Source: Polytrichum commune (taxonomy: Eukaryota > Streptophyta > Polytrichopsida > Polytrichales > Polytrichaceae). From it: 64,000 nt of DNA. The translations under genes were made by a program, and so were the position numbers. Under the pieces are notes generated by a model. That model made no database searches, was not told the origin of the DNA, and saw only the letters and a list, made by a program, of their open reading frames with translations. The stretch covers positions 35,836,001 through 35,900,000 of the forward strand of contig OX485804.1 of NCBI GenBank assembly GCA_950295325.1, written 5' to 3'. Of the stretch, positions 33,181-63,492 are shown in pieces (positions within the stretch are counted from its first letter, which is position 1; each line of letters starts with the position of its first letter).

Positions 33181-33219
33181 AACACTATATTCGTTAATTG
33201 GAGACTTTGGAAAGTCTCA
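33181..33219 (+). repeat. E1 left terminal repeat with hairpin
   Basis: AACACTATATTCGTTAATTG is followed by GAGACTTT-GG-AAAGTCTC, a perfect 8-bp stem. E2's left end has the same arrangement (GAGACT...AGTCTC). Confidence 0.75.
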
Positions 33220-33820
33220 AAATAAATTGGATCCGTAGTTTCGGATGCGAATATTGTGAACGTATCAAACATGGGGAACAATGGCAACATAATGTTTTAA
33301 AGATCCATATGTGATGAATATATATGTTTCTAAATATAGTAATTATTTGGTTGATAATAAAAAACTATGGCAACACAATATTCCAATGACACAAATTCAC
33401 AATTATTTGTATTTTTTATTCTGTATTGAACAAAATTAACGAATCTATAAATATCCATCTAATTTTACAACTATGGACTCTTGGATGCGTATCCCAAACA
33501 TAGAGGTCTTAGCCTATTGTGGTTGAATTGAACGACACATCCTAAACGCAACAATACTTAAAATAATTTGACAGTGTGCATAAGAGATTGCAAATTAGCA
33601 TTTGCAATATAATCATATAATTTAGGGTCCACATCCGTAAAAAAAAAATATAAAAAACATTTGGATTCCACATCCGTAAATCAATGCATCCATGCACTAT
33701 AATTGTAATATATAGAATTGCTATAAAATGTGTCTAATATAGTATTCGACCCCAATGTCATATATTTCATGAAAAACCAAGACACATTTCAAATATATTT
33801 TGTCCAAACCTACGTCAATA

Positions 33821-36800
33821 TCATTCACCATCTTCATCTTCAGCTTCATTTCCATTCTTGACATCGTTTTCTGCAGCAGCAATACGTGCCAAGTTGTCTT
33901 TGGCAAAATCTATATGTTTTTGGGGGATGGTCATTGTCTCAGTTTTGGAACCTTTGCGTGGTTTCCAAGCACAAAGTATGGTATCCGTGTTTATCCAAAT
34001 TGGTTCGTATGTTGAGTCCATTGTCCATTTGAAACCTTTTTTCGTGTCCCACCCTAAATATGTGCGGAGCACATTTTAATCTTTGGTGCTTGGACGGCAA
34101 TATTCCACCTCAATTTGACGAAAATTTGGGCTAGTTGGAACAAAATTTGGTGATGACAATGCTTTCACCAACCAAACCGGTTTTGGATGCTCCTCATCTC
34201 CAGGACATATGAGAACCATATAACCTTCGTAGCAATCAATAGCCACACGGAATGATGGAGCCGGACGATTACGAGCAGGGCCAACATAATGGTCGTCTGC
34301 CGCGAACTCTTCACGGACGTCCCCATTGTTGAAGAACATGGCCTCAGATTCCACGATTGTCACTCGGCTTTGTGGCCAAAAACCTTGTGTCAAACATGAG
34401 TGTCTATCGACATCGGGTGCTAGCAACGCTGAGCGGATGCGATCCCAATACGCAATCAATGGTTCGTAGGTATCCCGAACACGTCTTGTGATGTCTTCCT
34501 CGCACAAATCTTTCCAATACTGGATGAATCCAGATATACCTTTGATGATTTCTGGCCCATTCCTCATGGGGTTGGGTTTGCAAGGCTTCGGCTCCCCATC
34601 AGGTAGCATACATTTGCCATCTTCGTTTTGGCGCCAGACGAGTATCCCTTCCTCTGGACCCCAATTTGGGGAGGTACACAAAACTTTGAATTGCATGGCT
34701 GGCAGACCATCATCACGCATATAGAAACGGAATTGTTGAGCCTTGGTATGGCCCACTAAGCGATCACCTCCCTTAAGAATGAATGGTTTGATAAACGCTT
34801 TGAAATCAGACACTTCTTCAATCAAATGCGGGATGACTGGCACATTATCCAAATCCATGTACGATTTCATGAGAAGAGGAATTGTGGGAAAATCCTCCTC
34901 GTGCAACTTCATACTCCAACGTCCGAATGAAGCGTCAATGTCATCGTGCGTGTGGCCAACCATCAAAAAAGACACAAACACTTCTTTGAAAATGCCCTTG
35001 GCTACGAGTAATGACCAAAAACAAAATACGTATCGACATTTGTTGTCCTTGGCACAATTATCAAGTTGCACGTGTAGAGTTGGAGGCAAAGGTTTGGCAA
35101 GAACGGGTTGTTCAGGCGGTTCTTGCAGTGAAGATAGGCAAACCTCCTTCCCCTCTAGCACAGCCTCATAAATCGGTGTTGTTCCACATCCAACAAAAAG
35201 AGCACGAGAGGATGATGTTGGCGGACTCTCAAGATCTCGTAGAAGTTTTGCAAAAGACCCTACGGTATGATTGGCGTCACCAGGATAAAAATCCAAGCCA
35301 TAATGTGCATATTTCACGTCCACATGGCCATGTGCGATCATACCTACATTTAGGGACACACATGAAATAGTCACTCCAAAATCATATATATGAATGAAAT
35401 TCAAAATTTCCGCAAGCAAGCCAAAAAATGTACACTTACGGATGTACATCCGTAAATCTTAACAATGAGTATGTGGGCACGCAAAAAATAAATGTGAAAA
35501 CCAACAAACCTGTGACAGATATTGGAAGCTTGAAATATCCATCTGTAGCTTTTATTTTCCGTGCATAACAAGGGCATGCCGTCTTTGCATGGTCCATTTT
35601 GTCATGAATGATTGTCAAAACCTCATTCGGCCTCATTATCGATAATGCGCGATTCTTGTAGTAGTCTTGACGGTGTGCCTCCTGGTTGTTGACATGCTCA
35701 ATGTATTTCAGTTGATGTCTGTTGTGCGACTCAGTACCTATGGGATGTGCATCTCGAAGGCCTTTATATTTTTCACAAGCAGAACACCTGGCAAACTTAT
35801 CCCCGGGTCTCTTCGTAATGTATTCTGCGAATTGTTGATTTTTAATCACACTCAATTTTGACAACGAAATCGGCCCACATCCAGCCTTTTCGCCAACTTC
35901 ATTAACATCCATAAGTATGTTCTTCCATTTTGTCCCTGTAGGCAAAACCATCTGAACAACCTTTTCCCCCGACGGTAGAGTCCGCGTCTTGTGTGGCATC
36001 GCATCTGCCAATGGTATAATGATGGTTGATAGTGTTGCAGCCGCTTGGAGTGTTGCCTCCCTAGGTTTTTTTGTGCCAAAGTTGCCATGGAACCGAGAAC
36101 GGCGTCCTTGCATCGAATAGTTCCGGAACCTATAAAAATCTGCCTTTGAAACTGCATGTATAATGTACCATGCCTTGCAACATACCTCTACATTCTCCAA
36201 GGTCACAACCTTACGACTTTCGGCATCAAGGTGCATGTTGCGATGGACTTCAAGTTTCTTTGCAGATCGTATACGAAAGTCCGCGAGCCACATCTCTTGT
36301 CTCAAAGATTTGATTTTGTCACGGGAAAATAGTTGGCAACATCTCTTTGCACAACAGTCCTTTGTTGCTACGGACCTAATAGATGCGTCTCCCAATGTTT
36401 GATCTCGACGACGTTGTGTGGGTTCACGAGGCAAACGAACGGAATCATATTTACGGCGACCTATTCTAGGGCGCATTGTGGCGAACAAAGCCGATTGCAT
36501 TTGATCAAAACGGCGGGAATGATTCCACAAGCTAACACCATCATGAAGAACACTGCGCAACGGCCATCGACGAAGAGAGAATCTCCAACCAGTAGGCACC
36601 TCCAACGGATGTAAGGAATTCAAAATGCACACCCCCACATCTTCTTCCCCAAGGGGATTTGCATAAATACAATCCGTAGGATTCGAGTTCCAACAAACAC
36701 CATCCGCCACGGGGACGCCACATCCATTGAGTAGAACGACATCAAGATCAATCCACTGCTCCCGCGAATAACCCTCACATGGTGGAAGGAATTCATCCTC

Positions 36801-36914
36801 TACATTGGCGACACCAATTGTAGTATCTTGTTCCACGACAACTTCAAACTCGCTAGCATAGCTTGACGCTTCCGAAGAAAAATCAACCCAACTATCACCG
36901 ACGTTGGAATCCAT
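33821..36914 (-). pseudogene. E1 DUF7869-type transposase-like gene, one nonsense codon
   Basis: Exon 1 is 36914-35510 (start MDSNVGDSWVDF) and exon 2 is 35343-33821. They are joined across a GT-AG intron to give ...ISVTGMIAHGHVDVKYAH. TAA at 34076-34078 interrupts exon 2 (RPSTKD*NVLRTYLGWD); the frame then continues 83 codons to AEDEDGE. Conserved features shared with the E2 copy are a Cys/His-rich region (KDCCAKRCCQLF...DVCC/EVCC), IIHDKMDHAKTACPC, QLDNCAKDNKCRYVF and VGHTHDDIDASFGRW. The last two are the hallmark of DUF7869, which I take to be an RNase H-like integrase/transposase fold. Identity to E2 is roughly 60-70 per cent by eye, so the two are distinct families. Confidence 0.75.
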
Positions 36915-37058
36915 GGCCACTACAAGAAAGCCCAATGAAGAGTATGTCAAAATATCCCATTCAATAAATGTCATGGATAGCCCTAACGCTTATTATTATC
37001 AATGAAACACAATGTGAACACTAGTGGCTTTCATGGCTTGGAAACAAAGCTAGCATTG

Positions 37059-37908
37059 GTATACGAACGTGCGTCCGTATACCTCCATGTAACAACATCA
37101 GCAGCGCAAGCACACGCGCATACGGATACATTTATGTGTTCATAGGAGCGGAAAGGTGGAGGCAACAAAAACATCACTGGTTTATGGACGCGCATCCGTT
37201 AATCGGCTCGTGCACAGAGTTCAGTATCATGCTCAACCACAACAAAGGTATACGGACGCGCGTCCATAAACATCCGTATGACAAACATCAATGTAGTCCT
37301 AGACACAAGTTCAAGGAAGCAAGACGTCCTCAAAAAACGGCCATGTGTACACAGTCCTGACGACTCATGAAATTTGAAGAGGATTGAACACGGCCATACG
37401 CGCTTCCTAAAATGTTTAATCAATGTCAAAATATTTTACTATGACATAGGGTGATGTAGGCTAAGGGATGCGAGCTCCCAACCCTTCCTGACCGTACAAT
37501 CTCAGTGCGGTCTCAATCTACATGGCACATGGTCAACATTATGGTAACAAAGGTTTCCAGGTTTATGGACGCGCGCCCGTAAACCTCTGTGGACCTCATT
37601 TCTAGCATAAAGACAGTGCTCGATGGAATACACCTCTGTGGACATCATTACTAGCCTAAATACAATGTCCAACGCGCCAAGGGGTTTACGGTTTACGGAC
37701 GCGCGTCCGTAAACTTCCATGATAATATATTGTCATTGTGGTACTCTACACGACAGGTGGTGTAGGTGACCTACAGAACTATGGCACCAAAGGTATGCAG
37801 GTTTACGGACGCGCGTCCGTAAACCTCAACGTACATGAGTATTGGCTCAAACAAATAAAGGTTCAATGAACCAATATGTTTAAGGTTTACGGACGCGCGT
37901 CCGTAAAT
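37059..37908. repeat. E1 palindromes upstream of the transposase gene
   Basis: The unit is an 11-bp arm GTTTACGGACG, two bases (CG), then the reverse complement. Perfect 24-bp copies lie at 37691-37714 and 37801-37824, and a near-perfect copy at 37885-37908. Degenerate ones lie near 37059, 37178, 37249 and 37560. The surrounding sequence is not otherwise repeated, so the palindromes are the conserved part. Confidence 0.9.
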
Positions 37909-37914
37909 CTCCGT

Positions 37915-40900
37915 GATTTGCGGCGTTAAAATAGGATCATTGCACCAGAAATGATAACTGTCCGAAATTTAAAAAAAATCAGCACACTACTAGGAGAGTG
38001 CAACCCAAATACAAATTGTCTACCCTAATGGGCTCAGGATTTGGGGTTTAGGGTATAACATGATCTTTACCTGCACAAAATCTGTAGCAGGAGCACACTA
38101 CAAGAGCGCAACCCACAGCTGAGATGCAAAAAGAGTCCCGACGGTGGGGGGTGTCCCCTTAAGTACTGATCGCTTTCCCTTGGATCCGTTTTCCAACATA
38201 GGATACCAGCCACCAACTATGTCCTATAAATACAAACCTAGCATTACTACATTCCGTGTGCCAGCCTTACAATGGAATGTGTATTCATGTGGACAACATG
38301 CATAGACCATGAGTCCACATAATGACAAAGAGAAAGGCATCTATGTATTTGTGGTATACAACAAAGTAAATAGGCTAATATTATATGAGCAATAAACATT
38401 GTTGAGGGGTGGTTTATAGGATTGGAGTACATAATATGAAGAGTACATTTTAAAAAATGTAGACAAAAAATTATAGAATCTTGTGAAAAATCAACCACCA
38501 CAACAACAATAGTACATGGAGTATAAAAATACATGTAATCAAAATTAAATTAGCAACTACTTTATTGTTTTGCATACAATGTAATGGTATTGACCATAAT
38601 ATCATGCTATCTCCTCTCATCTTGCATTTAATATTATAATTACATTGGCCACCGCCTTACCATCCAACATGTTTAATGTACCCAACTATACACACCTATA
38701 CATAATTGTATTGATATCTGATACACAAACTTTGATTACCGTAAGGCCATGATAGTAGCACATCTATTGTCCTAGGTAACATGGGTTGCATTCAATTCAA
38801 TATTGTCAATTTGCTCTCTAAACCTTAGGGGCCCCTTCCGTACATCAACATTTACTTCAAAAAAACTAATTATACTAGCCTTCTTCATGTACTATACGTG
38901 AGGAAAAACATTTTTTAGTACCTCATGTACATTACCTACATTAATTATTACTCAAACAATACCAATTGTTGCTCCAAGTAACATTATTAGCCCAAAAAAA
39001 CATAATGGAGAGAAAGGAAGGGTAGGGTATCCACATAGTAATAAGGCAAGCAATATTAAGTTGGTGACGCAAGGGGGATACTCACATGTGTTCGTACGTG
39101 GTACCCTAAACCCTAAACCCTATAACCACCCAACCCTAAACAAGCATGTGGACATATAGGGGTGCAAGCATGGTTAACTGAACAACTCCTGATACATGTC
39201 AAGGCTTAAATGGAAAGTAATTCAAAACAAGCAAGCAAACAATTATACCAATTGTTGTTCTACGTAACACTATTAACCCATAAAATATAATGGACAGAAA
39301 GGGAGGGTAGGGTATCCAAATAGTAATAAGGCAAACAATATTAAGTCGGTGACACAAGGGGGATACCCTAAACCCTATAAACGACTCCCCACTCATGTCA
39401 AGGCCCAAAATTATCTAAAATAAAACCATAAACATTTCAAAAGTCAAGCAAATTTATGTTCACAAATTATACTTCAAGGCAGTAAGTGGTGAAAAAGTAG
39501 GTGACATAGAACAAAGATTTATCAAATTGTCAATGGCAATCCTAATTACCCTATATGCGTAACCTTACCTTTCATTTTTTTAATCTTTATTTGGCTGGGT
39601 AAAATATACCCCTTAGAGGCAAGTACAAGATTTAGCCGGGACTTGTTATCCTTTGATGTGACCTCAAGTTTATAATGAAATGAAGGGATACAATATGAAA
39701 ACAATTAAGCCTTCAAAACATTTAAGATCATCAAAGTGATGTTCTGAGTCATATTTATCCATTTGCTTTAAACCTTTACTTTTGAAGATAGGTTTTGAAC
39801 AACATTAACACAACCATACATGTCACCATCATGGAAACAAAACTCCAATATAAACAACAATTTGCTACTACTTATAGGCGATAATACAAGCTCTTGCCTA
39901 GGTTTGGAAGGATTGGATGAATCCTTAACGTTGTTTAATGTACAAGAGGGATGTAAATTCAACACCTACCCATGCCTTTTGTTTTAATGCAAGCTTAGAC
40001 CTATGTGCAGAGGGATTGAATTAACCCCTAACGTTGTTTAAGATTTTATAAGCATTTGATCTTAACCCATATTATCTCGATGTTTGGTTTTGTTAATTGT
40101 GTTTCAAATGTGCATAATTTAAATATCATTATTTATAATGATATTCGCATCAAAGCATCCCACGTGTCGAACTTCAATAAAGTTTTCAAGTTGCTATTGA
40201 TAGTATAATGTAGGGTTGAAAATCCCCTTACACAAATTATTGCGATAATTGAGGGATTCATAAGGGTGTAGGGGCAACGTTTCATGAGAATTTGTGGCCA
40301 ATGGGTAATGCAATTGTCCCAATTGCATTTGAATCCCACCTTTGTGAAAAAAAAATTATACTTAACTTAATCAAGAAGACATCCTTTATATTCAATATTA
40401 TTACTATTCTTAAAATATAAAGTCCCCTCCATACTTGCTACACTAGAAATGGTATAATTTAGTTTCACTCATTGTTTGGAGTTACAAAAGGCTTTATCTT
40501 TTTATTATTGATGTTATTTAATTGATGCCAATGACATAATATACAATGAATAGTTAATATAGCAATCCATAATTCTAAATATTAAGCAATACTACTTATA
40601 ATAGTTAGTGTACTAGTAATTTAAAGCCCGCTTACCTTCATATTACAACAAGTCCACAAAGAAAATCTTACACTTGAGTTACTCAACCTCAACCTATACT
40701 TCAGAATTATGTTTACTATTGGGCCTAGATGGTTATTATACATTGAGCATTGAGATTCCTTTATTTTTGGTTAGCAATTGTTTTTGGTATACGTTCTTGG
40801 ACTCAAGCAACATACAGTCCATCCTCTATAAATGTTAGGCTCTAGAATATAATGTTCCTAACATTTATTGTGAGTTGACATTGTAACAATTATAAAGGGA

Positions 40901-41280
40901 GCTTTTTGAATGCTTAACAAATTTCATTCATTACAATTATGAAGGGAGAGTTTTGCAAAATTATCAAACATAAAATATGTGTATCAATCACAATATAACC
41001 CATATTAATAATTTGATCACAAATTTGGTGGCTTTTGCCACTTTGGAAGGTTGTGACTCAATGTAATGGATGTCATCTCACAATATTGGATGTAGTTCGT
41101 AGGTTAACATTTATAAGTGGCAAATTAACAAAGAGGGGAATAAATTATTCTTAACATTTAACAAAGTTAACATTCTAGTTAGCAATATGAGAGGAGTACG
41201 AATTTGTTAACAAATACAATTATGAGTTAACATGTGGAAGTGTGACATTTATCGGGGTGGACTCTAGCACTCTAATATAG
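37915..41280. other. E1 central non-coding region
   Basis: No gene is seen. The stretch at 38125-38160 (ggtggggggtgtccccttaa) aligns with E2 51640-51660, where a minus-strand TATA box lies (TATAAAGG); in E1 the TATA is lost. The rest is AT-rich. Confidence 0.5.
38960..39375 (+). repeat. Direct repeat of about 115 bp in E1
   Basis: The segment around 38965-39080 (gggtagggtatcc, agtaataaggcaa, gcaatattaag) recurs at about 39253-39370 with a few changes. Both are followed by CCCTAAACCCTA-type runs. Confidence 0.75.
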
Positions 41281-42250
41281 ACCAATAGACATATGCCACG
41301 TAAGGGGAACGCGTGGCCTTTGGGCGCGGGGTGATGGGACGTCTAGGTAGGGGCGTTTGGGAGGGAGTGGATGCAACGTTTTGGGTTTAGGGTTTCGTGC
41401 ATTCGCCCTTGCCCTTTTTGCTTTCACCCTTTCACCCTTTCCTCCTTTCGCTCCTTTCCTCCTCCTGCATTCCTTTGTTGCTCGCCCTTGCTGGTCTTCC
41501 TTCTCCTCATTCTCCTTCTCCTTCATTCTCATTCTCATCCTCAATCTCCTTCTCCTTCATTCTTCTCCTCAATCTCCTTCTACTTGTTGTTTCTCATCCT
41601 TCTCCTCTTACTTGCTATTTCTCCTCTTTCTCCTTCTTGCTCTTGATTTGTTGCTTTGTGTCTTAGTTGCATAAGAACGCCAAGAGCTCTAGACAAGTGT
41701 TTTTTTCTTTCCTTCACTCCAAGATGTGTTGTTCCAGGTGCTTATTAGGTGATTTCAGTGTATGTTTTGATGCACAAGAGGGGGATTGTAAGATTGTAAG
41801 ATTGTAGCTGGTTTAGGGTTTCTAAGATAATGTATGTGAAGAAATCTGAGTATGTTTGTGAAGAAATTGAGTAGTTTTTTGCTTGCAGTCTCATTAGGAC
41901 ATAATTGGAGTAGTTTCAGTTGGAAGGGTTTTAGGGTTGGAGTAGTTTTAGTTGTTTCAGATTGCTCTTCCCTTCATATTGTAATTGTCTTCACTTCACT
42001 TCAATTCACTTTGTCCAAGTTCTAAGAAGTTTTGCTTTGTTCACTTCAATCTGATGTCAATGTTGAATCCAATTCAATCTTTGTAGTAGGGTTTTTTTGT
42101 GGGTTTGATGCATTTTAGGAGCAACACAAAGGTTAGTTGATTCTTGAATGTGCACATTGCATTTGCAGAGGTTTCTAACTTCAATTTTATTGTTAATTTG
42201 CAGTCTCTCCTAGCTGCAGCTGTGGTTTAGGAGCAAACATTGTACAAAGG
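41281..42250 (+). promoter_or_regulatory. E1 effector-gene promoter and pyrimidine-rich leader exon
   Basis: A moderately GC-rich block (41281-41400) is followed by a long CT-rich tract (41400-41640) and a leader ending at a GTAAGT donor (42251). E2 has the same arrangement (GC block, CT tract, leader, GT donor at 54989). Long frames here (41357-41674) are a by-product of the CT tract. Confidence 0.5.
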
Positions 42251-42511
42251 TAAGTGTTTCCTACAACATTGCAATTCTGAAATGATACAATCTTCTTAGT
42301 TTGTAGTGTAGATCTGCTATTGCAATGCAACACCTCATACATTCTAATCTGGAGTGCAAATCCATGTTGCATTCCAAGTTAAGATGAACATTGCACATGA
42401 ATGTAATACACAGAAAAAGTTCTTCCGAAAATTTCGGAACAATATCCAAAAACACATTAACAATAATTGTACAAAGTACTTAAATTCACAGTAATTAAAA
42501 AATGGTCTGAA

Positions 42512-51659: not shown

Positions 51660-54600
51660 CTATCCACCTCCGTTTCTCCGACTTCCTCATTGGATACCTT
51701 TCCCGCCTTGTTCTCCTGCAGCGGTTTTTTCAAACCTCCTGACATAATTCCCCGTTTTCTGTTTATAGTAGAAAATGCGCATCTATCAATGCCCCTCTCA
51801 TACCCCAGCCGTCATATGACTTAGTCTATGATATTTAATCTTTTTTTTTTGTCTTGTGTGGATATGACATACGCCGTTGGGAGGAAGGGTGGCGGCCACA
51901 TTAATTTTTTCAAGTATCATCAAGGTATATTTTAACCAATATGTAGACCCAAACACAACTCCATTCAATGCTTTCAAGTGTAAACCTATTTAGGTGGGGT
52001 TTGGGCCATTTGGAGGCTGCAATTATGAGAGAGTTTCCAAGGCTTGAGGCCATTGTCATGATGAATAGAATTATTTATTTGTCTCCCCTAAACCCTAAAC
52101 CCTAGAACCTTGCTCTATTATCTCGCATGCAAGAGTGGCAATGACGAACGTATGTGGACGTTGTTAAGGGGATACTAACTACCAATGTCCCTTTTTAGTT
52201 CAATATTTTAATGTTACTTGAATCCATCCTCAAGTTCACTTCAAGTTTACTAATGTGTGAGAGCAAAACATCGAAGATTGGACCCTAAACCCTTATAACA
52301 TCCACAAAATGAAATACGCATTGACTAAATACAAAACCAATTAGGATATCATGTTTAAACGTCCCATATAACATATTAACATGATCAAGATTGTATTTAC
52401 TATGACCTTCCGATTAGACTCTTCTTCATATTATGCAAACAATATCTGTTATATCTTCCTCCATTATCTAATACACGTGGAGAGAACAATGAATAACAAC
52501 ATGATGTTGTGCTTCTGCGATTTACTTTTACATGACATTCCATATATTAAATACATCATGAACGATGGTTTATTAGCGACTAATATGTGATTCCCTAAAG
52601 TGAGCGAAACATCCAAAGTTGGACCCCTAGCCCCTATTAACATCCACAATATTTCATGTTATTTGAATAAACACAAGACCAATCAATATATCGCGTTTAA
52701 ACGTCTCAAATAAATACAATATCGTCTTCACTATAACCTTCCTATAAGACTCTTCTCACGAGTAAGACAATGTTATACATTGACATTGGATAGATTAATA
52801 TGTTATAACCCTATCCCCTAAACCCTAAACACCAAAATTTAGTAGTGGTTCACTGATGCCCCCATATACAAACAACATCTATTTTAAACGTTCTTATTAA
52901 GTGTATCAAACACTAACTATCATATTGAGTGTAATTATCATATTCATTGTAGTGACACTACAACACTTTCATTGACTAGATAAAACTAAATTGGATATAT
53001 AGAGTTTGATACACTAAATATGAATGCATACACTAATTACCAATATCCCTATGACAATATGTAAGGTTATATCTAAGGGGTTTTATTCTACTTGGAGTCA
53101 AACATTGTGGTATAATTCAAACAATATATTGACAAAAGAGGTGCCAATATTATAAAACCTCATATACTAAAAGTCACTAAATATAATAGTTAATGCAATT
53201 ATTTAGACCCTCACATGAGGACTTATATTTTGAAAACAAGGAATTGATGCCATGACAAAGTTGAATATTTTGGCCAACTTTCAATTTGCGCTAATCAAAA
53301 GAACATATGTTGTTTGTAATGTGTGCACACAACATTGCTCCATCCTCAAGCATGCAAGTGTGACATTAACCTACGTATGTGGAAGTCATTAATGGAACCA
53401 TAAATCACAAATGACATTTGTGAGTTCATTCTTTCGTGAATTAGGATGTTATGATGACAATATACATTTGTATTGAGAACTACAAGCACCAAGGCCCTGT
53501 CATTTGACGTGTGTGCCATTCATTTATGGTTTGTGGTGTTTAGGGTTTACCGTTTAGGGTTTAGGCATCATCGAACAAAAAACTGAATGTTTAAATGGCT
53601 TCATATGATATGTGAAGTCCATGGGGTTGAAGTAGATACATTTGTTATCATTTTGTTTCTCCCATGTACTTCAAATTTGAGCTTCTAAGTACATATGTTA
53701 ATGTTCATTGTAATGCTACTTGTTAGGGTATCCATTGTAGTCTAGAGCTTTGTCCTCTACCAACAACCATCATAGAAATTAGAATACATAACCCAATACC
53801 CTTAACCATGTGAACGGTTACCATATTTATATTATTGCACCGTGTAATTGCCTTTGAAGATTGCAATATAATAATTATGAATTACTCCTCTTAGATTTTG
53901 TAACACTCTCATATGATTCCATACGACTACATTATTGAAATACCAAAACAAATAATGGCTACGATGTTATCAATTATCAATTCCAATGGGCGATCATTCA
54001 ATTCAACACCATTAAAATCAGAGTTGGCGATGGTGTAAATATTGTGCAACACCTTAGTCTATGTAGCTTTTTGAATGTTTTTGAATTGCCGGTAATGAAT
54101 ACCGGGTTAGAATGCCGGGGCCGGGCGGCCAAGAGAGGCGCCGACCCTCCTATGTCCCGCCCCTAGAGGCAAGGACAATGCCGAAGGCAATGTCCATAGG
54201 GTGCCATGTGTCAACACCAGAAGCCGCGCGGGCAACCACCTCCACCAAGGAGGTTTGGACACCTGGCAGGGTTTTGGCCCGCGAGGCTTCTGGGCCGTTG
54301 ATGGGCCCGAGAAATCGCATGGCCAGGATTGTCTGAAGGGGAACCCCTTCGGCTCTCCCCTTCTCTCCCCTCCTCTTTCTCTCTTTCTCGCTTTCCTCTC
54401 CCTCCGCGCGAAGCGCCGCCGCTTTCCATAGCGACGCGCCAAGCGATTGTGAGTTTGTCTTTTCGCATAGCTTCTTGCGCTCATTGGGTATTGCTTGGAC
54501 GCGCCGCTTCCCGCGAAGCGCCGCTTTCCTCTTTGTCTTTCTCTTCACTTCTTCCTTTGCATTCTTCTTCTCCTCTCTGGTCCTTCGAGTCCTCTTCTAG

Positions 54601-54871
54601 GATTATAGGCTTATTCTCTCTTCTTGATTCAGCGTGCACGCATTGAGTGAGTCCGGATCGCTTTAGTTGAGTGTCATTCATTTCTTATTGTAGAGTGGAT
54701 GCAGTGAGTGACATCAGAGTTTTGTTGTTGTTGTGGAGTGATTTCAGGTTGTTATTAGTAGTGATCAGAAGGCTTGCAAGAATCAGGGTGTTTGTGAGAG
54801 GGTTTCAGAGTGCTTGTGAGATTCATAGTGATTTTTAGGTGTTTTTGAGTGTTGATTTTTAGTGATATCAC

Positions 54872-54982
54872 AGAGTTTCTGGATTCTGGATCTAAGAATC
54901 AGCTTGTAAGAGCAGGTCACAAGAGTTTCTGGATTCTGGTTATAAGAATCAGCTTGTAAGAGCAGCTTACAAGAGTTTCAAA
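54872..54982 (+). repeat. Tandem duplication of about 52 bp in the effector leader
   Basis: GTTTCTGGATTCTGG, then taagaatcagcttgtaagag, occurs twice with few differences, followed by CAAG/GTATAT, a likely splice donor at 54989. Confidence 0.7.
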
Positions 54983-55170
54983 CACAAGGTATATCATTTC
55001 ACTCTACACAATTTGCTTCACTTCCTTTACGATCATGTTTCATATACAATGCATTGTATATGATGTTTAAATATTAAACATGCCTCTGGAAACTAAGTAG
55101 TTTCGGGAGGCGACCCAAACCCCAATTTAAAATGTAACGAAACATTTAAAATCAGCTTGAAAATTGATTA

Positions 55171-55642
55171 AATGTTTGGGTCGTTCGACCCAAACCCCAA
55201 TTCAAAATATAAAAAAACCCTTGAAACCATATTAAGAATTAATAAAATGTTTGGGTCGAGCGACCCAAACCACACAGCCTCATGTTTGGGTCGCTCGACC
55301 CAAACCTCAATTAAAAAAAAACTTGAAACCAGATTGAGAATTAATAAAATGTTTGGGTCGAGCGACCCAAACCACAGAGCCTCATGTTTGGGTCGATCGA
55401 CCCAAACCCCAATTTCAAATATACTGAAACACTAGAAATCAGCTTTAAAATTAATGAAATGTTTGGGTCGCTCGACCCAAACACTCTAGCCTCCACATTT
55501 AAAGAATACGAGCCACCAAGTGTTCAAGGTTTCGGTCGATCGACCCAAACCTTGAATTCGGGCTGGTCAATAAAATACATTTGTTCCATTTCCACCAAAT
55601 GTTAAATGCATTGTCGACTACTTTGGGTCGATCGACCGAAAC
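55171..55642. repeat. E2 palindromes in the intron before the effector start, about 8 copies
   Basis: The arms GTTTGGGTCG and their complement are kept while the two central bases vary (TT, AG, CT, AT). The same words flank the acceptor that precedes the ATG at 55670. This is the position occupied in E1 by 42512-43172. Confidence 0.9.
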
Positions 55643-55669
55643 TAATAGTTTTAATTTCTGGACTTACAG

Positions 55670-58600
55670 ATGGCCCCCAAGAAGAGACCTGGAGAAAGGT
55701 TCTTTATGCTCGCGCCAGACGTAATATGGCAGGAGTATGAAACCCCCCAGGACGACTCATACGTGCCCAAGGATGGGCTTGTCCTTGCGTGGTTAGTTCA
55801 GGTTGTAAAGGGCTCCCAGTTCAAGCTCCTATTCGTGGTAAAAGTAGGGACCCACGAGAACCACACTTGGACAACGTTGACAGGATGGGAGGTTGCGTCC
55901 GTCCAAGCCCTCGGGGATTACGTGGACGTAATTCTCGAGAACTCCGCCGTGCACAACGCCCACATGTTCATGCACCAGTTCTCCGAGTCATTCGACACTA
56001 TATACGCCAAGGAGTCATGCGTGGAGCCTGAAACAATTAAACCGGAGACAATTTTCATAGATGGCAATGTAACCAACACGAAGGTTGCAAGTAGGTTTAC
56101 AAAATTGAAACAGGCCATCACGGTCCTCAACAAGGCGCTGCAAAGTAAAGCCAAAACGCAGAAGCCTGTGAGGCGTAAGGCAACGGCGGAAGAAGGCGCA
56201 GGGTCGTCCAGACCCCAAACTGTGAGGATACCGTGTCCGGTCCCTGCAGACTCCAGACGGCCTAGCACTACAGGAACGCCGGCTGACAGCGAGACGCCCA
56301 CACCGTCCGGAAGCCGGCAGACGACCCCGTCGAAGAGGGCGAGAGAGTCCTCCGTCATGACCACCGAGCCAGTTTCCCCGGAGCTGCGGATGCCAAAACC
56401 TGGCCAAGAGGTGGATGCAGGCGAGATACAGAAAATCAATGATAACTTCGAGACGAAGTGCCTGCATTGCTTCTTCATGGGCAGGGACTTCAAGTTCGAG
56501 GTGAACATTGCACAGTGCCACCTTGCGCCACCTGAGAAGTGTGTCCGAGCCAAGGAGGACGCCTACGTCGACTGGATGGTCGCTCAGATCTTGGGAGGGC
56601 AATTCAAAGACGACAGGCAGACAATTGTTGTCATGCCGCAAGGGCTGAAGAGAATGCCGACGCCTGAAATGTGGCCGACAATATGCAAAGGCGACTTCTG
56701 GCTGATTGACGGCCAACACAGTGTGGAGGCGTCTAAAAAAATTCAGCTGATGACCGAGTGGGACGACCCCAACAACCAAAAGGAGAAGCTAAAGGTGTGG
56801 AAGACATTGGTGGTTTGGTCTGACAACGAGACCGTACTAACCGACATCTCACGCTTCTTCAACATGGAAAACAAGAAGAGGGCGTACCAGGCATCCTGGA
56901 TTCGGAACATCATGGCCTTGAGGGAGGTGTGGGAGTTTTACGGCAGGCCTCCCAAGGAAAGGGAGAATGCTAAAGACAAGAACCCAAAATGGGAGGTGAG
57001 TATGTTTGGGTCGATCAACCCAAACTCTTGAATTGTTTACCTTTTTTATTCAGGTTTATAGTTTGGGTCGATCGACCCAAACTCTTGAATTGTTTACCTT
57101 TTTTATTCAGGTTTATAGTTTGGGTCGATCGACCCAAACTCTTGAATTGTTTACTTTTTTTATTCAAGTTTATAGTTTGGGTCGATCGACCCAAACTCTT
57201 GAATTGTTTACCTTTTTTATTCAGGTTTATAGTTTGGGTCGATCGACCCAAACTATAACATTGTTTACTTTTTCTCGTCGTGTTTATAGTTTGGGTCGAT
57301 CGACCCAAACTATAACATTGTTTACTTTTTCTCGTCGTGTTTATAGTTTGGGTCGATCGACCCAAACTGTAACATTGCTTACTTTTTCTCGTGAGGTTTA
57401 TAGTTTGGGTCGATCGACCCAAACTCTTGCATTCGCAGTTTTCTCACGTGTGTTATTTACTTCATGTGCAGGACTTCAAATACCAGATGATCAACAAATT
57501 CTCCTCGATTGACAACGTTTCCCACAAGCAGAAGAAGTACAACGAGCTAAGAGGAGAAATTTATTTGATCACAGCGTCTGACTCCGTGTGGGGGAGATGG
57601 AAGAGTGTTTTCGAGAAACACGAGACGGGGGACCTCATGGATCCCGACACCGGCATGCTCTTCAATCAGACTGCGCGCTTCAAGCAGATGAAGCCTTTGG
57701 TGAGGGAGTTCTTCAGGGCTCTTCAAGGTCTCTCGGAGACAGAGATGGGAAAGACGGCGTCCCACATCCTTCACGTGCAGCCGACGGCGAAGAGATGTTG
57801 GGTCCACCCGAAGATCGTCTTCATCAAGCCCAAAATCTTCGTCCCTTCATGCTACACCATGAAGGAATGGACGGAGAATAGGAAAAAGAAGACGACCATC
57901 GTCCAGGAGCTGCACAAGCTGGTGCCGAAAAGGAAGCTCATAGTGGATGGAGAGGTCGACGAGGCGCACTGGAGGGCATTCAAAGCCGACTACAAGTTCA
58001 CCAGTGCGTCAATGGCGGCACTCATCAGGGAGGCGGGAGACGACTTCTTGAAGTCCAAGCTTGTGAAGGGGGGGAGGAACCGAGCGCTTCCCGAACACTC
58101 CGCGCGTGCCTTCTCCAACTTTATAAAGGAGAAGAAGATCGTCAGCTTCGAGGGCGACGCCTACTTCAACTTGGTCACCCTCGAGCCTCTCAAGATCCAA
58201 GGATGGCCGGGCTCTGATGCCAAGAAGGCTATCAGGACAAAAGCTGGGGACCGCTTCCCCTTCGGAATGATAGACTTCAGGAACATCCCTGGAGCCTCAT
58301 TCGAGGGGACAATGAGCACCCCATTCTACGAGCCGTTCTTCACAAAGTTTGTGGATTACGGCAGCCCCAAATTCAGGGAGGTCGACGTCTGGCTGTGGAT
58401 TGTCGAGGACAGGAGGGCAGAGCATGTGTACGAGATCGTGCGGAAATTGCAGCCAGAGTACGCCGTCTCAAAATCTCACTACGTTGCTGCACCGGCGGAG
58501 GGGGCGTACAGCACGCTGAAAGACAAGAAGACGAAGATCGTCAACGTGCTGTGCTTGTACTTTGTGTACAAAGCTGAGCTGCTTAAGGTGCCAAACCATC

Positions 58601-60673
58601 CCATAGCCAGGATGGAGAAGCTCTTCCAAGTCCAAGAAGGGTTGGGCACCAGCAGGAGCTTGTACGACGAGGCGAAGTACGCCAACTACCCCGCGGATGA
58701 GCTGCGCATGGAGTTCTACCTGCGGATGATGAGGACCCTCACGAAGAGAGGGGACTGCATCTTCAACGTCTTCGGGGGCTCCAAACCGGTTTTCGCAGCC
58801 ATGGTAAGCAAATAACCTGAAGGAACTATATGGACGGTTTGGGTCGAGCAACCCAAACTAGGACATGCATTGTTTGGGTCGAGCAACCCAAACTAGGGCA
58901 TGCATTGTTTGGGTCGCTTGACCCAAACTAGGGGCACGGTCTGTTTGGGTCGCTCGACCCAAACTAGGGGCACGGTCTGTTTGGGTCGCTCGACCCAAAC
59001 TAGGGGCACGGTCTGTTTGGGTCGCTCGACCCAAACTAGGGGCACGGTCTGTTTGGGTCGAGCGACCCAAACTAGGGCATGCATGGTTTGGGTCGCTCGA
59101 CCCAAACTAACTATTCTTATTTTGTTTTGGATGTCACTTTCCATTATTTGTTCATTTGGTGATACTAATAGTATTGATTCTGATTGTGCAGATGTCTGGG
59201 TTGAACATCTACTCCTATGTGAAGGATGCCGATGTTCAATTCTACAGGACCCAGAAGGCGCTGGCCAAGAGAATGGACATCCTCGACTGGATACCCGGAT
59301 CCTACGTCGAAGAGATCGTCGAGGGGGGCGAGAATCCTTTGGATATGGCGAGGCGAATCAACCCGGGTGAATTCGCCATGCGAGCCCCCGTTCAATTGCC
59401 AGAGCCGCTCATCGGGTTGCATCCGGGCAATCCCTCTATGGGAGCAGGTGGCGAGGTTGCGGAGGAGGGGGAGGAGGGGGAGGAAGAGGAGGAGGAGGAG
59501 GAAGCAGAGAAAGTGGAGGGGGAGGTGGAGGAAGGGGCAACAGGATTCACTCAAGAATCCGAGGCCCCTCAGCGGAAGAAGGTCATGCGGGCTGCAACGC
59601 CCCAGAGCAAGCTAGTACCCGTCCTAATGGTGGCCGACGCGAAGGACATGTATTCGAGGGACGCGACGGCCACCTTCAGGGAGCGGCGAATGCTGAAGGG
59701 GAAGAAGTTGTACGGGGACTATGCGGTGGAGGAGACGATCGCCATAAGCTCCGAGGACGAGGACGACATGGAGTTCGCGAAGAGGCTGAGGTCGGATCCT
59801 GCCTCCCCCACAGCGTTCGCCGGGATGGTGAGGGTGAAACCCGAGGTCCTCACCGTGGAGGAGGCCAACGCGAAGATGCTCCGGGACGAGGAGCAACGCG
59901 TCCGATTGCAGAAGGCCGCCGCCGAGGAGCCCTCGGTCCGCAACGAAGTCGCGGAGTTGAGGGCTCTCCTGTTGGAGCAGGAGCGGCAAAGGGCGATGAC
60001 CCCACCTCCGTCCCAAGCGGACCTGATCACGCAAGTGATCCAGGGCATGCTGGCGCAGGGATTGGTGATGGCTCCCCCGAGTTCATTCCCTCACTTGCCC
60101 GCAGGCTTCCCTCCACAGGATATCCGCCCGCGGCCGGCGCCGCAACAGTCCTTCAGCTTCGCGCATTTGCTGCAGCCGCACGCCCGCCCTTACGCGCCCG
60201 TCCAGCAGGTGGACGACCCCAACCTTTGGCGCGTCCCAAGAGCTTCCAGCCCGTTGGCACCCCCGCCGCTCCGGCCTCCCATCCTCTTGCCCCCACACCA
60301 CCAGCGGGACGACCCCCACATGTTTGGGTCGTCCGACCCAAACAGTGCCGACGTTGCAGCGTCCCAGAGCGACGCTCGCCAACCAGCAGGGTTTGGGTCG
60401 GCCGACCCAAACCCCGTCCCCGACCAGACCCCAGTGGACGAGCCCATGTTAGACGTTGAAGGCCCGCAAGGGCCTGGTGATACCTCTACTCCTAACCCAG
60501 TCGATGAACCAATGCATGATGCGCATGCGGAGGTTGGGTTGGGACAAAGGCATGACAGTCAGCCTTTGCAGGAGCAGGTTGCGGCTGACGTCGTCGTCGG
60601 AGGTGGCGGTGATAGAGGTGGGGCAGCGCACGCGGTGACGGCATCCACGTCGTCGATGCACGACCAAGGCGAG
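55670..60673 (+). CDS. E2 effector: DGQHS/ParB-like, methyltransferase-like and acidic linker
   Basis: Exons 55670-56995, 57472-58803 and 59192-60673, all with phase-0 GT-AG introns, give 1380 aa up to the next junction. The start MAPKKRPGERFF follows a TTACAG acceptor. Residues about 170-250 are basic/Ser-Pro linker. Around residue 347 lies FWLIDGQHSVEASKK, then FFNMENKKRAYQASW. This resembles the DGQHR/ParB-like nuclease fold, but Ser replaces the usual Arg. Residues about 700-886 hold FGMIDFRNIPGAS, DVWLWIVED, DELRMEFYLRMM, then GDCIFNVFGGSKPVFAAM (about 876), running into exon 3 (SGLNIYSYVKDADVQFY). The order is like beta-class DNA N4/N6 methyltransferases (motif IV first, FxGxG motif I last), but with degenerate motifs. 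ParB-like/methylase fusions are known in phages. Exon 3 then has an acidic run (about 59455-59530), a coiled segment and a Pro-rich tail. The exact function is unknown. Confidence 0.72.
57003..57423. repeat. E2 palindromes in effector intron 1, 8 copies in a 58-bp tandem array
   Basis: Each period of about 58 bp has one palindrome (spacer AT; the first copy has one arm change) followed by tttgtttaccttttttattc-like filler. Three later copies have a second filler type (ttactttttctcgtcg). Palindromes start at about 57003, 57061, 57119, 57177, 57235, 57289, 57347 and 57402. Confidence 0.92.
58838..59108. repeat. E2 palindromes in effector intron 2, 8 copies
   Basis: Spacers are AG, CT and others. 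Filler is taggggcacggtct in the middle four copies and tagg(g)catgcat in the outer ones. Two copies have an arm change (cgagcaacccaaac). Confidence 0.92.
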
Positions 60674-60716
60674 GTAATGCACTGACCCCACTCAGTTTGG
60701 GTCGGTTGACCCAAAC
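60321..60716. repeat. E2 palindromes inside coding exon 3 and in intron 3
   Basis: Two complete palindromes sit in the coding sequence (at about 60321, spacer TC, encoding FGSSDPN; at about 60390, spacer GC, encoding FGSADPN). One more with an arm change lies just after the exon 3 donor (60695-60716). The two coding copies keep both arms perfect. Confidence 0.85.
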
Positions 60717-61187
60717 TCCATGGGTCTTTGTCTTCTTGCCTTGGTCGTGTCCCCTAACTACCCTAAACTCACGGACACGTCGCCCCCCCGGCACTTGCGC
60801 CCTTCGCCACTTCCCCCCGACCATTCGTTCGTCCACATACCCCCCGGCTTGCGACGAAGTCTTCATCACGGCGGCCCGTCTCTTCAATTTTTGCTAGATG
60901 TAGAAGTAGGCTAGTTTGAACGCATCGTTCAACGCGGCTCCCCCCAATCAAGATGTACATAGAGCATTGTATACAATATAATCACCATTTTTTACTCCTA
61001 TATACTCGTATCCTGTGTTTGAATGTATGTTGTATGCTCTTGCCTCTCTTGTGTCCCTTGTTGCACCCCCTCCAAAATAAATCAAATGGTTTTGTGTTTG
61101 CACCGAGAACACTCGTTTCTTTAAATGCTTTGTTTGGACATAGCATGACATAAGTCGCCCACCGTTTTCTCTCGATCGTATCCGCAG

Positions 61188-62001
61188 GGCTCGGAGCATA
61201 GCGTAGCGGCTCCCCGACGCTCTTCTCCAAGGAGCAGAGAGGGCAGCGCGGCGGCGCCCCCAATTTTACCCGCCCCGCCCCCGCGGCCGAAGAAACGATT
61301 CCTGGTGTTAGACCTGAACGGGGTCCTCGTCCAATGCGTTCATTGCCCGAGGACCCCCACGGTGCCCTTTTGCAAGCCCGAGGACGCGAATTACGACGGC
61401 CCGCCCACGTTCATAAAGAGCAAGCTAGTTCACCTCCGCCCGTGGCTTCGGACCTTCCTCCAGATGGCCCAACAACGATGGTGGGTGGTCGTTTGGAGCT
61501 CCATGACGGCCGAGAACACCAATGCCGTCGTGGAGTTCATCTTCAAGGGCATCGAGCCCCCGTGCATGGTCCTAGCACAGGAAGCCTGTAGAATATTGTA
61601 CACACCGGACGGCAAAGTCGTCAAAAAACCAAACAACCCCGCTTCCCCCCAATACCTCAAGGTCTTGAAGCCCATTTTTTTGGGACCAGCGGCCGTCCTT
61701 GATAGGCGTCCCCTACGACGTCCGTCCCACCCGCGAGAACACGCTCATGGTGGACGACAGCGCCGCAAAGAACATGTTGAACCCGACGGCCAACCTCATA
61801 GTTTGCCCTACCTGGACGGTCGAGAAGGTCCGGGACCGATTTTTGTTAGACCTTGGTAAATACCTCCAGGCGCTCTGCGGAAGCGGACTGCCCGTAAACA
61901 ATTTTGTTAGGAACAATCCGATAGGCGAGAGATACTTGGATCCACGAGACCATTTGTACAGAGAGTTGTTATCTCACGCGAAATTTAACAAGCTCATTTG
62001 A
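61188..62001 (+). pseudogene. NIF/CTD-phosphatase-like (HAD) exon, apparent frameshift
   Basis: It is joined in phase 0 to the exon ending at 60673 (DQGE/GSEHSVAAPRR), so it appears to be exon 4 of the E2 effector gene. It encodes an NLI-interacting-factor-like phosphatase domain of the HAD superfamily: KKRFLVLDLNGVLVQC (motif I, with DLNG in place of DLDG), HLRPWLRTFL, WWVVVWSSMTAEN (motif II), then ENTLMVDDSAAKNMLNP (motif IV). The frame changes by one base between about 61670 and 61700. One extra T in the run at 61675-61681 would explain it, since the alternate frame reads FWDQRPSLIGVPYDV. This may be an assembly error or a real inactivation. Such domains act on phosphorylated RNA polymerase II tails, but the missing second Asp may lower activity. 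Similar DLNG forms occur in plants. Confidence 0.65.
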
Positions 62002-62022
62002 GACACTACGTGTGTTTGTATG

Positions 62023-62062
62023 TGTATGTATGTATGTATGTATGTATGTGTGTGTGTGCGCA
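62023..62062 (+). repeat. (TGTA)n / (TG)n microsatellite
   Basis: Five or six TGTA units followed by a (TG)n and GCGC run, in the non-coding stretch after the phosphatase stop. Confidence 0.9.
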
Positions 62063-62170
62063 CGCGCCCGTTCATTTTGTGTAATATATGCTTCATATGT
62101 ATCTTGATTTTCACGCGCTCTAGCAAACCCTCCTCCCTTGGGTTTTGTTTCGTTTCCTTTTTTGCGCCAG

Positions 62171-62973
62171 CGTTTGGAGCCCTCGATTGACATCGTCAGC
62201 GAGTCGGACTTGGGGAGCTTCTTCTACGAGACCGTCTACGACGCCGCGTCGACCATTGACTACTCCAAGGAGCCTCTTGACGCCGGCGTCGTCGATAGCC
62301 CCCCACCCAAGCAAATCTTCCGGCATTCTCCGTCCCCGTCGCCGCTCAAGGGCATAAATCGCAAATGCGTCCGGACATCCCCCTCTCCGCCCGGCGGCAG
62401 TAGTACACCTCAACGGCGGCTGCGGATGGACGCTCGGCCAACGAAGAGTGGAACCCTTCCTATTCCTTTGCGGGACGCATTGCCCCTCCTCGCCGACTCC
62501 AACGGGAACGCCCCCGGTGACAAGGTGAACCCCCCCCCCCCCAAACCTGGTTAACCGCGCATTACAATCATTTTGCACTTAAAAAATGAACGTGTGACAC
62601 GTTTGGGTCTTCCTCCCTAAACTAACACATGTGGTCTTGCATTGACGCGTTGCAGGTTGCTCCCACCCGTAAACCTATGCGGTCTAGTGCGTCCATCGAG
62701 TTCGAGCGTATGTACGCCATGACCAGAAATGCGAGACAATCCACTTCATCGTATTCGAATTCTTCGACGTATATTTCGGGCGGCCGACGGACTCCAAAAT
62801 GTGTTATGGATGGCGGTCACCCCAAGAATGGCTATAGTCGCGGGGCGGAGATTTTCAGGAATGTTGAAGCAATGCGAGCAAAAGAAGCTGCAGCAAAAGA
62901 AAAAGAGGCAAAAGAAAAAAAAACAAAAGAAAATGAAGCAAAAGAAAAAGAGGTAGTATCCGAGGCTAGATAG
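62171..62973 (+). CDS. Last exons of the E2 effector gene (uncharacterised)
   Basis: Exon 62171-62524 starts after TTTGCGCCAG (RLEPSIDIVSESDLGSFFYE) and ends GDK/GTGAAC. Exon 62656-62973 starts after GTTGCAG (VAPTRKPMRSSASIEFERMY) and ends in a Lys/Glu-Ala-rich helix (KEKEAKEKKTKENEAKEKE) and stop. Both joins are phase 0, as in the rest of the gene. How 62171 connects to the phosphatase exon is unclear, because the phosphatase frame reaches a stop at 61999-62001 and no good donor is seen before it. It could be a separate small gene. A degenerate palindrome (gtttgggtcttcctccctaaac) lies in the intron. No domain is recognised. Confidence 0.5.
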
Positions 62974-63112
62974 GCCATAGTAGGCGTAGGGTTTTGGGCC
63001 ATAGGCAAGAACATTTTGGGTCGCACTATCCAATGGATGTGTGGTGTTAGCATGATATGCATTTTACATGCCACACTTTGTATGTTTTTTTTTGCAATAA
63101 TATAAGTTAGAC

Positions 63113-63330
63113 ATGATTTCCCCTTCCATATGGTCTAAGGTTTGGAGTGCCTTATTGTGTGCATTAATATGAATGTTTTAAGATTTTCCCTTCAATAAGA
63201 TCTATGGTTTGGATTGCCCTACCTAAACCATATTCATACAAGCTCTCATATTTTGTGTGCATTAATATGAATGTTTTAAGATGTCCCCTTCAATTTGGTC
63301 TAAGGTTTCGATTGCCCACCCTAAACCATC
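63113..63330 (+). repeat. Subterminal tandem repeat near the E2 right end, about 2 copies
   Basis: A unit of about 100 bp contains TGTGTGCATTAATATGAATG, then TTTTAAGAT, cccttcaat, then ctaaggtttggattgcc. It resembles subterminal repeats used as transposase binding sites. Confidence 0.65.
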
Positions 63331-63446
63331 ACAAATATGAGTTATTAATGGGGTTCTTGGTCTAAACACCCGCTTCAAAGTGTTCGCATCTTACAACTTT
63401 CACCAATATGTGTTCCATTTATCCTTGTTCTTATTTCTATGAATGT

Positions 63447-63488
63447 CTCAAAATGCCCAAAAAGTCTCAATTTAACGAATATAGTGTT
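63447..63488 (-). repeat. E2 right terminal inverted repeat
   Basis: Ends ...AAAGTCTCAATTTAACG then AATATAGTGTT, the exact 28-bp complement of the left end. Confidence 0.9.
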
Positions 63489-63492
63489 ATGA
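63489..63492. repeat. Right 4-bp target-site duplication of E2 (ATGA)
   Basis: The same four bases as 46710-46713. Confidence 0.8.

Follow-up and report, generated by a model that had tools for sequence, protein, structure and literature searches.

VANDAL21 and VANDAL6 of Arabidopsis are transposons in which a family-specific short motif is repeated in tandem within non-coding DNA, both ahead of the transposase gene and inside introns of accessory genes (PMC5735166, PMC10398659). As described for this group, the accessory protein is far less conserved than the transposase, the motifs of related families differ, and one of these motifs is also present in an unrelated transposon, AT9TSD1; the accessory VANC proteins are anti-silencing proteins, for which demethylation has been shown (PMC5735166, PMC10398659). 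In the En/Spm (CACTA) transposons, TnpA is an activator of Spm, and this activation correlates with demethylation (PMC10398659, citing earlier work). Eukaryotic proteins with the ParB fold are chiefly sulfiredoxins (Srx) according to a survey whose main text holds no occurrence of the terms 'transpos', 'plant' or 'moss' (PMC12704722).

In this paper, we have analysed a stretch of 64,000 nucleotides of the moss Polytrichum commune (hereafter the window), which holds two transposons, E1 and E2, each with its own short palindrome; a third family, E3, carries its own palindrome at matching places. To the knowledge of the original prediction, no plant transposon built in this way had been described, which has to be corrected, as VANDAL/VANC has this layout (PMC5735166, PMC10398659); the parts found here are new. 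As in VANDAL/VANC, family-specific arrays precede the transposase gene and occupy introns of the accessory gene (gene 2) in E1-E3, the accessory protein is more diverged than the transposase by protein identity, and the E2 motif, like that shared with AT9TSD1, is also present in another transposon backbone. The VANDAL motif as described, however, is non-palindromic and has one orientation (YAGTATTAY), whereas the sites here are perfect palindromes with 10-11-bp arms; the VANA transposase, which is of the MULE type, is replaced by a DUF7869 transposase with a 4-bp target site duplication (TSD); and instead of VANC (DUF1985/DUF287) a predicted ParB-type and FCP1-like protein is encoded. No Pfam match to DUF1985 or DUF287 was listed in exons 1-3 of gene 2 or in the 15 members of its alignment A2.

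Two nested DUF7869 transposons and their genes

E1 and E2, both of ~17 kb, are DUF7869 transposons flanked by 4-bp TSDs. E2 is complete (46714..63488, + strand, 16,775 bp) and is bounded by 17-bp terminal inverted repeats (TIRs), the inverted 17-mers starting at 46714 and 63472, and by the TSD ATGA (left 46710..46713, right 63489-63492). E1 is incomplete in the window because E2 is inserted inside it: its left part (33181..46713, + strand) begins with the terminal 17-mer AACACTATATTCGTTAA at 33181 and matches E1b, a second and complete E1 copy at C1:36951047 with the TSD ATGG on both sides, while E1 continues beyond 63488, its remainder picking up ~9.4 kb past the right end of E2. A perfect 4-bp TSD was found in 10/10 E2-family elements examined, i.e. 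E2 and the first nine of ~15 TIR pairs (14-18 kb, all on contig C1) picked from the first 100 TIR places. CACTA elements have a 3-bp TSD, TIRs whose first bases are CACTA, and subterminal motifs; membership in that group was rejected on the 4-bp TSDs of these ten copies and of E1b and on the TIR, AACACTATATTCG, which starts with AACACTA, and unlike En/Spm the arrays here are not subterminal. A scan of viral contigs gave six matches with the TIR, none with the E2 palindrome and no confirmed match with the transposase alignment.

Each family has the look of an autonomous DNA transposon of ~17 kb, in which two transcription units diverge. The candidate transposase of E2 is encoded on the - strand by a C-terminal exon (47248..48759) with conserved motifs and a DUF7869 domain (PF25273, E 3.6e-42) and by an N-terminal exon (48819..50339), an open frame 66% identical to that of E1; the corresponding exons of E1, also on the - strand, lie at 34076..35458 (DUF7869, E 2e-40) and 35436..36989 (open frame). 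No literature on DUF7869 was found.

Gene 2 is encoded on the + strand. In the structure model of E2 exon 1 (55670..56995), a PH-like region is predicted at aa ~11-160 and a ParB/Srx-type region, with the motif WLIDGQHSVEAS, at aa ~270-404. Exon 2 (57472..58803) has no significant family match and gave a low-confidence model (mean pLDDT 45.7), in which no helix-turn-helix (HTH) or C-terminal dimer domain was identified. Exon 3 (59192..60673) is followed by a downstream exon (61188..61700) with a NIF/FCP1-like phosphatase domain (PF03031, motif VLDLNGVL), whose frame breaks near 61690 in this copy and whose counterpart in E1b is 42% identical. Exons 1 (43975..45024, with one internal stop) and 2 (45151..46467) of E1 gene 2 are 32% and 35% identical to those of E2, respectively. 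Despite this divergence, gene 2 is under purifying selection, with a low dN/dS, and is more constrained than the transposase, while its dS is much higher; a faster rate of gene 2 is therefore not established, and its description as fast-evolving was dropped. The dN/dS values within E2 come from 10 usable pairs for exon 1 and 21 for exon 2, as gene-2 dS is mostly saturated and copies with indels or partial matches were dropped. Eight exon-1 loci, among the 95 of 1129 candidates that were scored, had an identical score of 933.7 bits, which suggests recent activity or spread. CpG ratios, which bear on DNA methylation, were inconsistent.

The original prediction had likened the elements to parS-ParB pairs, and the resemblance appears to be closer than analogy because gene 2 is predicted from its model to contain a ParB/Srx-type fold. 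The first nine chains retrieved by Foldseek with this model were all ParB/KorB, six of them belonging to entries for KorB, a plasmid repressor, and none reached an E of 0.001. At the sequence level no Pfam or NCBIfam ParB family matched gene 2 and PDB sequence searches gave nothing significant; a PHROG ParB-like family was found in 5/15 gene-2 members (best E 0.03), and the profile comparison of gene 2 with ParB was marginal, 3/100 column shuffles scoring as high (0/20 in a smaller run). With the ParB-parS, KorB and Noc CTPase-clamp systems of bacteria and plasmids the elements would share a predicted ParB-type fold, clustered perfect palindromes and long DNA stretches to serve. They differ in that no Pfam ParB match was identified, in that GQHS stands opposite GERR (the GxxR nucleotide-binding motif) in all 15 aligned exon-1 sequences, and in their eukaryotic transposon context. 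The site parS is 16 bp long. Srx, as surveyed, would share the fold class and the eukaryotic host with gene 2, but it is a small enzyme, whereas the domain here belongs to a large transposon protein beside palindrome arrays.

Palindrome arrays and the nature of the sites

Both palindromes exist as originally described (an 11-bp arm in E1 and a 10-bp arm in E2, each with a 2-base centre), and neither was found as an exact copy in the other element. The estimate of roughly 40 exact copies in E2, however, gives way to 25 sites with both arms exact, 38 with at most one mismatch and 41 with at most two. At this last threshold, 14 sites lie upstream of the transposase gene (50502..51387) and eight each upstream of the gene-2 ATG (55174..55642), in gene-2 intron 1 (57004..57424) and in intron 2 (58837..59107). 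Clusters were present in E2 at all four places where they had been claimed for both elements. An intron before the ATG of gene 2 is plausible from the sequence, AG preceding the ATG. Three further palindromes had been missed: those at 60322 and 60391 are in frame in coding exon 3, and that at 60695 lies just past it. This cluster is kept with its three sites in 10/10 E2-family copies; arrays occupy all five places in 8/10 copies and four in 2/10. The arrays are tandem with spacings of about 32-78 bp, and their copy number differs between elements. In E2-family copies they begin 3.8-5.3 kb inside the left end, and ~2.7 kb separates them from the right end, so that they are not subterminal; these positions led us to reject subterminal transposase sites.

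E1 holds six exact palindromes. The cluster upstream of its transposase gene (37059..37908) comprises two of them (37691, 37801) and five sites with 1-4 mismatches, and that upstream of gene 2 (42512..43176) comprises the other four (42512, 42626, 42774, 43013) and two sites with 2 and 5 mismatches. For the introns of E1 the word cluster is an overstatement, because intron 1 has a single copy with one mismatch (45041..45064) and intron 2 has two degenerate copies (46513 and 46561, spanning 46513..46584) with 4-5 mismatches.

The arms, which had looked selected, are constrained, whereas the centre and the flanks vary freely. Arm changes on one side only numbered 123 against 2 compensatory (pair-keeping) ones, a pattern of protein sites, and a hairpin or RNA structure was rejected on this ground. 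To judge from these substitution patterns, the palindromes look like the sites of a dimeric DNA-binding protein.

Family specificity and a second transposon backbone

In the genome (407.8 Mb), the E1 palindrome with its 11-bp arms has 847 matches per strand and that of E2 with its 10-bp arms has 9231; the genome count for the E3 palindrome is 2909, and the reversed-pattern controls had none. The three motifs differ, coexist in one genome and are nearly exclusive, and no lone palindrome was seen among the 50 listed for E1. The original prediction had named two observations that would count against it. One, random palindromes in other copies of a family, was not what we found, since one palindrome is common to 10/10 copies of the E2 family; furthermore, motif and gene-2 clade go together in three families and on a quick-type tree, which carries a long-branch warning. 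In this tree, the 36 labelled of 47 exon-1 sequences required five label changes (minimum 4; shuffled mean 8.8, 0/200 as low), the labels of palindrome type being assigned visually on translations of the beginning of intron 1, with 11/47 rows unlabelled and with L024, exon-2-only proteins and fragments (e.g. P0166, of E2 type) left out. Part of this tracking follows from linkage alone. Two of the unlabelled rows are P0165, which has an E2-type left half-arm but groups with E1/E3 (support 82), and P0145, which is truncated inside an arm of E2 type.

The other observation, palindromes abundant outside such elements, was partly made: among the first 100 E2 palindromes listed, 23 had no exact terminal 17-mer within 18 kb, and confinement of this palindrome to DUF7869 elements was rejected. 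The two outside clusters examined (apart from two smaller ones at C1:438279 and 462875-462971) belong to another transposon-like unit, whose adjacent gene is a candidate ParB-like gene by its DGNHR motif. Pfam gave nothing in this gene, 2/100 shuffles scored as high as its protein did against the gene-2 profile, and no DUF7869 was found in the stretches of this backbone that were read. At C1:475338, the flank preceding the array held neither a SWIM-like frame nor any recognisable gene.

Proposed mechanism and alternatives

We propose an operator-like role for the palindromes: they would be bound by a dimeric DNA-binding protein, for which the product of the element's own gene 2, with its predicted PH-like N-terminus, ParB/sulfiredoxin-type domain and FCP1-like phosphatase domain in the downstream exon, is the likeliest candidate. 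This protein would collect at the arrays, both those preceding the two genes and those within the introns of gene 2, and, once there, activate or protect (anti-silence) copies of its own family only; as E1, E2 and E3 differ in both protein and half-site, their control circuits would be kept apart. Activation or protection of a family through a dimeric ParB-fold protein that the element itself encodes and that attaches to the arrays is in our judgement fairly probable, its binding, dimerisation and anti-silencing or activating effect being inferred. Considerably more tentative is a ParB-parS-like device in a eukaryotic transposon, in which the protein would be recruited or loaded at the arrays and spread over the ~17-kb element to keep it open against silencing, the fused FCP1-like phosphatase domain would act on transcription, at least two different backbones with ParB-motif genes would have one palindrome in common, and families would diverge through joint changes of half-site and protein.

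The same sites and the same gene-2 binder might instead serve autorepression or copy-number control, like a KorB operator, which would agree with the placement of arrays before both genes and within the introns of gene 2 itself and with the share of KorB among the best Foldseek chains. We regard this as rather unlikely, as the high copy number and the signs of recent spread would fit an activator better and a repressor has no obvious need of dozens of sites and intron arrays. A role of host transcription factors, whose binding sites the elements would exploit in the form of the palindromes while gene 2 is unrelated to them, could explain why two different backbones have the E2 motif in common; three nearly exclusive motifs tracking gene-2 clades in one genome, the lack of lone E1 palindromes among those listed and the candidate ParB-motif gene of the second backbone make it quite improbable.

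Transposases or their helpers, such as TnpA of En/Spm, often bind repeated motifs within their elements, and the DUF7869 transposase might bind the palindromes as transposition sites; the internal position of the arrays and the second backbone, with the E2 motif and no DUF7869 in the stretches read, render this highly improbable. Finally, tandem arrangement, with the spacings given above, and varying copy number would agree with the arrays being by-products of tandem duplication or of hairpin-prone DNA or RNA (cruciforms, intron structure) with no cognate protein. Exact arms amid variable flanks, the excess of one-sided changes and the preservation in every copy of the partly coding cluster at the end of exon 3 speak against this, and we consider it remote.

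The results suggest that each family recognises its own DNA, as Arabidopsis VANDAL does with unrelated proteins. Detailed knowledge of sequence-specific self-recognition through a transposon-encoded protein comes from VANDAL in Arabidopsis, and the same layout appears to have arisen here with unrelated parts, on a scale of thousands of sites and with three natural specificities in one moss genome. Recent activity, if true, would make the system testable. If the ParB-type domain is the reader, this would be a DNA-site-linked use of the ParB fold in a eukaryote, and the three families would offer a test bed for the joint divergence of a palindrome and its reader.

Element structure and the two genes

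E2 lies within E1 as a complete element (46714-63488), whose inverted ends are 17 bp long and whose TSD is ATGA. Perfect 4-bp TSDs were found in all ten elements with E2 ends, i.e. E2 and nine copies on contig C1, and the 17-mer end has 594+589 occurrences in the 408-Mb genome versus none for its reversed control. The anatomy of E1 was taken from E1b, a second, complete copy of that family with the TSD ATGG at both sides and a right 17-mer that differs at one position. A second insertion of ~9.3 kb lies next to E2 inside E1, running from about window position 63532 to C2:35908839, with E1 picking up again near C2:35908840. Palindromes whose arms end in GCTGTCCC and ACTTCCAT are present in the E1 sequence and its extension, and were found again in L044, another TIR locus. 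A hAT-type transposase frame (DUF659 and Dimer_Tnp_hAT) lies on the minus strand at 17068-20322.

The minus-strand gene of the elements encodes DUF7869 (PF25273) with conserved acidic and histidine motifs, and is considered a transposase candidate because it sits between TIRs and has stayed conserved from family to family. Where an organism is named among its 120 listed relatives, it is a moss, Ceratodon purpureus or Physcomitrium patens (45-50% identity), which makes a moss the probable host. Our literature search found no paper on DUF7869, and no prior description of these elements among the top-ranked titles, most subscription journals being outside the literature covered. The plus-strand accessory gene, gene 2, has in E2 three exons in the same frame (55670-56995, 57472-58803 and 59192-60673), and the next exon (61188-61700), which encodes an NIF/FCP1-like phosphatase domain (E 8.6e-9), may be spliced onto it; the exon structure and splicing are a proposed reading of the sequence. 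The phosphatase exon is found in both the E1 and E2 families, and DLNGV replaces DxDx(T/V) in it. The E1b counterparts share 32-36% (gene-2 exons 1-2), 25% (exon 3) and 42% (phosphatase) identity with those of E2. The gene-2 family extends beyond these elements, as the distant exon-1 relatives P0016, P0174 and P0175 (26-33% identity) retain the [DN]GQHS motif. Eight exon-1 loci genome-wide have the same score against E2 (933.7 bits), suggesting that one subfamily has spread recently.

Gene 2 is more diverged than the transposase candidate. Between E1 and E1b, dS is 0.98 and 0.92 in gene 2 and 0.19 and 0.25 in the transposase, a roughly four- to fivefold difference in the same element pair. Within the E2 family, faster amino-acid change per synonymous change was not found in gene 2 relative to the transposase, the median dN/dS of gene-2 exons 1 and 2 being 0.073 and 0.078, compared with 0.159 and 0.216 in the transposase exons. 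It seems that the two modules did not share one history, perhaps because elements have exchanged them.

Palindrome arrays in three families

Palindrome clusters of varying copy number occupy all five places in eight of the ten E2-family elements: 5' of the transposase gene, 5' of gene 2, within each of the first two introns of gene 2, and around the junction of exon 3 with the intron after it. In one copy, L022, the intron-2 cluster is missing along with the greater part of exon 2 and intron 2, which a deletion has removed; another copy, L024, is without the cluster upstream of gene 2. Four elements carry an additional lone site, located between the first and second clusters. The exon-3-end cluster has three sites in all ten copies (60322-60716 in E2, the third at 60695), two of which fall within the gene-2 coding frame in E2. 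The original prediction had put the palindrome count of E2 too high. The E2-family elements contain 369 sites with at most four mismatches, 252 of them exact and a further 70 with a single mismatch. Information per column over 267 distinct sites is ~1.5-2.0 bits in the arms, ~0.35 in the centre and mostly <0.3 in the flanks, and changes of the CpG-deamination type are common in the variants. One-sided changes number 123 among these distinct sites, against two that keep pairing; compensatory changes are expected of a structured nucleic acid and are not needed for a protein site.

Eight further TIR sites were read 6 kb inward. L041 and L045 belong to the E2 family; L040, L043 and L046 carry a new palindrome, TTTACGAACG-NN-CGTTCGTAAA, that of the E3 family; and no E1, E2 or E3 motif was found within the 6 kb of L042, L044 and L047. 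L043 and L046 have the E3 palindrome 5' of the transposase gene; L048, which is the same locus as L043, has it 5' of gene 2 and where intron 1 begins. This copy has a stop in exon 1 and an interrupted exon 2, and E3 is described from its left end inward. Judged by sequence identity, E1 is the nearer relative of E3: the transposase exons are 74-87% and gene-2 exon 1 is 42% identical, as against 61-65% and 35% with E2. Over the ten inner positions, the E3 half-site is one base off that of E1 and further off that of E2. In L040 (C1:639000-645000) and at C1:644983-646099, the E3-type palindromes form arrays inside a TIR; no recognisable gene was found in the 6 kb read of L040, which is perhaps a non-autonomous derivative.

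Exact palindromes number 847 (E1), 9231 (E2) and 2909 (E3) genome-wide, with none for the reversed controls. The 50 listed E1 sites form eight clusters of 3 to 9 with no solitary site, and five of these clusters are at most 6 kb from a listed exact TIR. As originally predicted, each family has its own palindrome: in the sources counted, exact motifs are almost exclusive to their family, the single cross-hit being an E3-type site in E1b. The palindromes are real, functional-looking and family-specific.

A candidate reader of the palindromes

The original prediction was that palindrome type would follow the protein clade. A profile search for exon-1 relatives scored 7996 candidates, of which the best 50 were noted; many of their open frames extend into intron 1, so that translated palindromes appear shortly past the splice donor. 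By eye, 18 cases were labelled as the E2 type, one or two of them decayed; three have a variant that decodes, with some ambiguity, as GTTTCGGGCG; two have a GTTTCGGTCG-like type; and P0015, a close relative of E3, has the E3 type. Placed on a quick tree of 47 sequences, of which 36 are labelled, the labels require five changes (minimum 4; shuffled mean 8.8; none of 200 shuffles as low). The predicted co-variation is therefore present; because palindrome and gene are physically linked, it shows slow change under inheritance and does not demonstrate recognition.

Palindromes were predicted not to be abundant outside such elements. Of the first 100 E2 sites listed, 77 have an exact TIR no more than 18 kb away and 23 do not. 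A different transposon-like unit carries the E2 palindrome in ~32-bp arrays at C1:2151800-2162350 (L129, L132) and C1:477980-480300 (L131, L133). At C1:2154319-2159866, one flank contains a frame of 455 aa that weakly matches a SWIM zinc finger (E 0.076, short of the cut-off), with no DUF7869 found there, and the other flank, adjoining the second array, contains a frame with FFIWDGNHRF. After the array at C1:477745-478007 comes a two-piece relative of the latter frame, which is 82-83% identical and retains the motif; neither frame was found on the opposite flank of this array. A degenerate motif pattern, composed after both motif forms were known and applied to loci chosen for their arrays, matched 15 times in 245,415 residues (frames of at least 60 codons), 13 times in gene 2 and twice in the FFIWDGNHRF frame, with no match in the remaining sequence, which served as background. 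The E2 palindrome thus appears to be paired with a ParB-motif gene on each of two distinct backbones, an unexpected hint that the ParB-type protein may be the reader. The earlier likening to parS-ParB was apt.

Comparison with VANDAL and VANC

The original claim that no described plant transposon has this design was mistaken. In VANDAL21, tandem arrays of the VANC21 motif YAGTATTAY occupy introns of VANC and VANB and the DNA 5' of VANA, and VANA is conserved far more than VANC; VANC6 has different motifs, and these VANC6 motifs are also carried by the non-VANDAL element AT9TSD1 (PMC5735166). A further study describes re-silencing of the same non-coding regions by RdDM (PMC10398659). The moss elements match the layout features save for the palindromic form, and do not match the protein domains. 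As with VANC and VANA, the accessory gene is more diverged than the transposase, the likeness being weaker in that gene 2 diverges without a higher dN/dS. By analogy, the gene-2 protein would bind the palindromes and act in anti-silencing, and the moss system may work like VANC while being no VANDAL.
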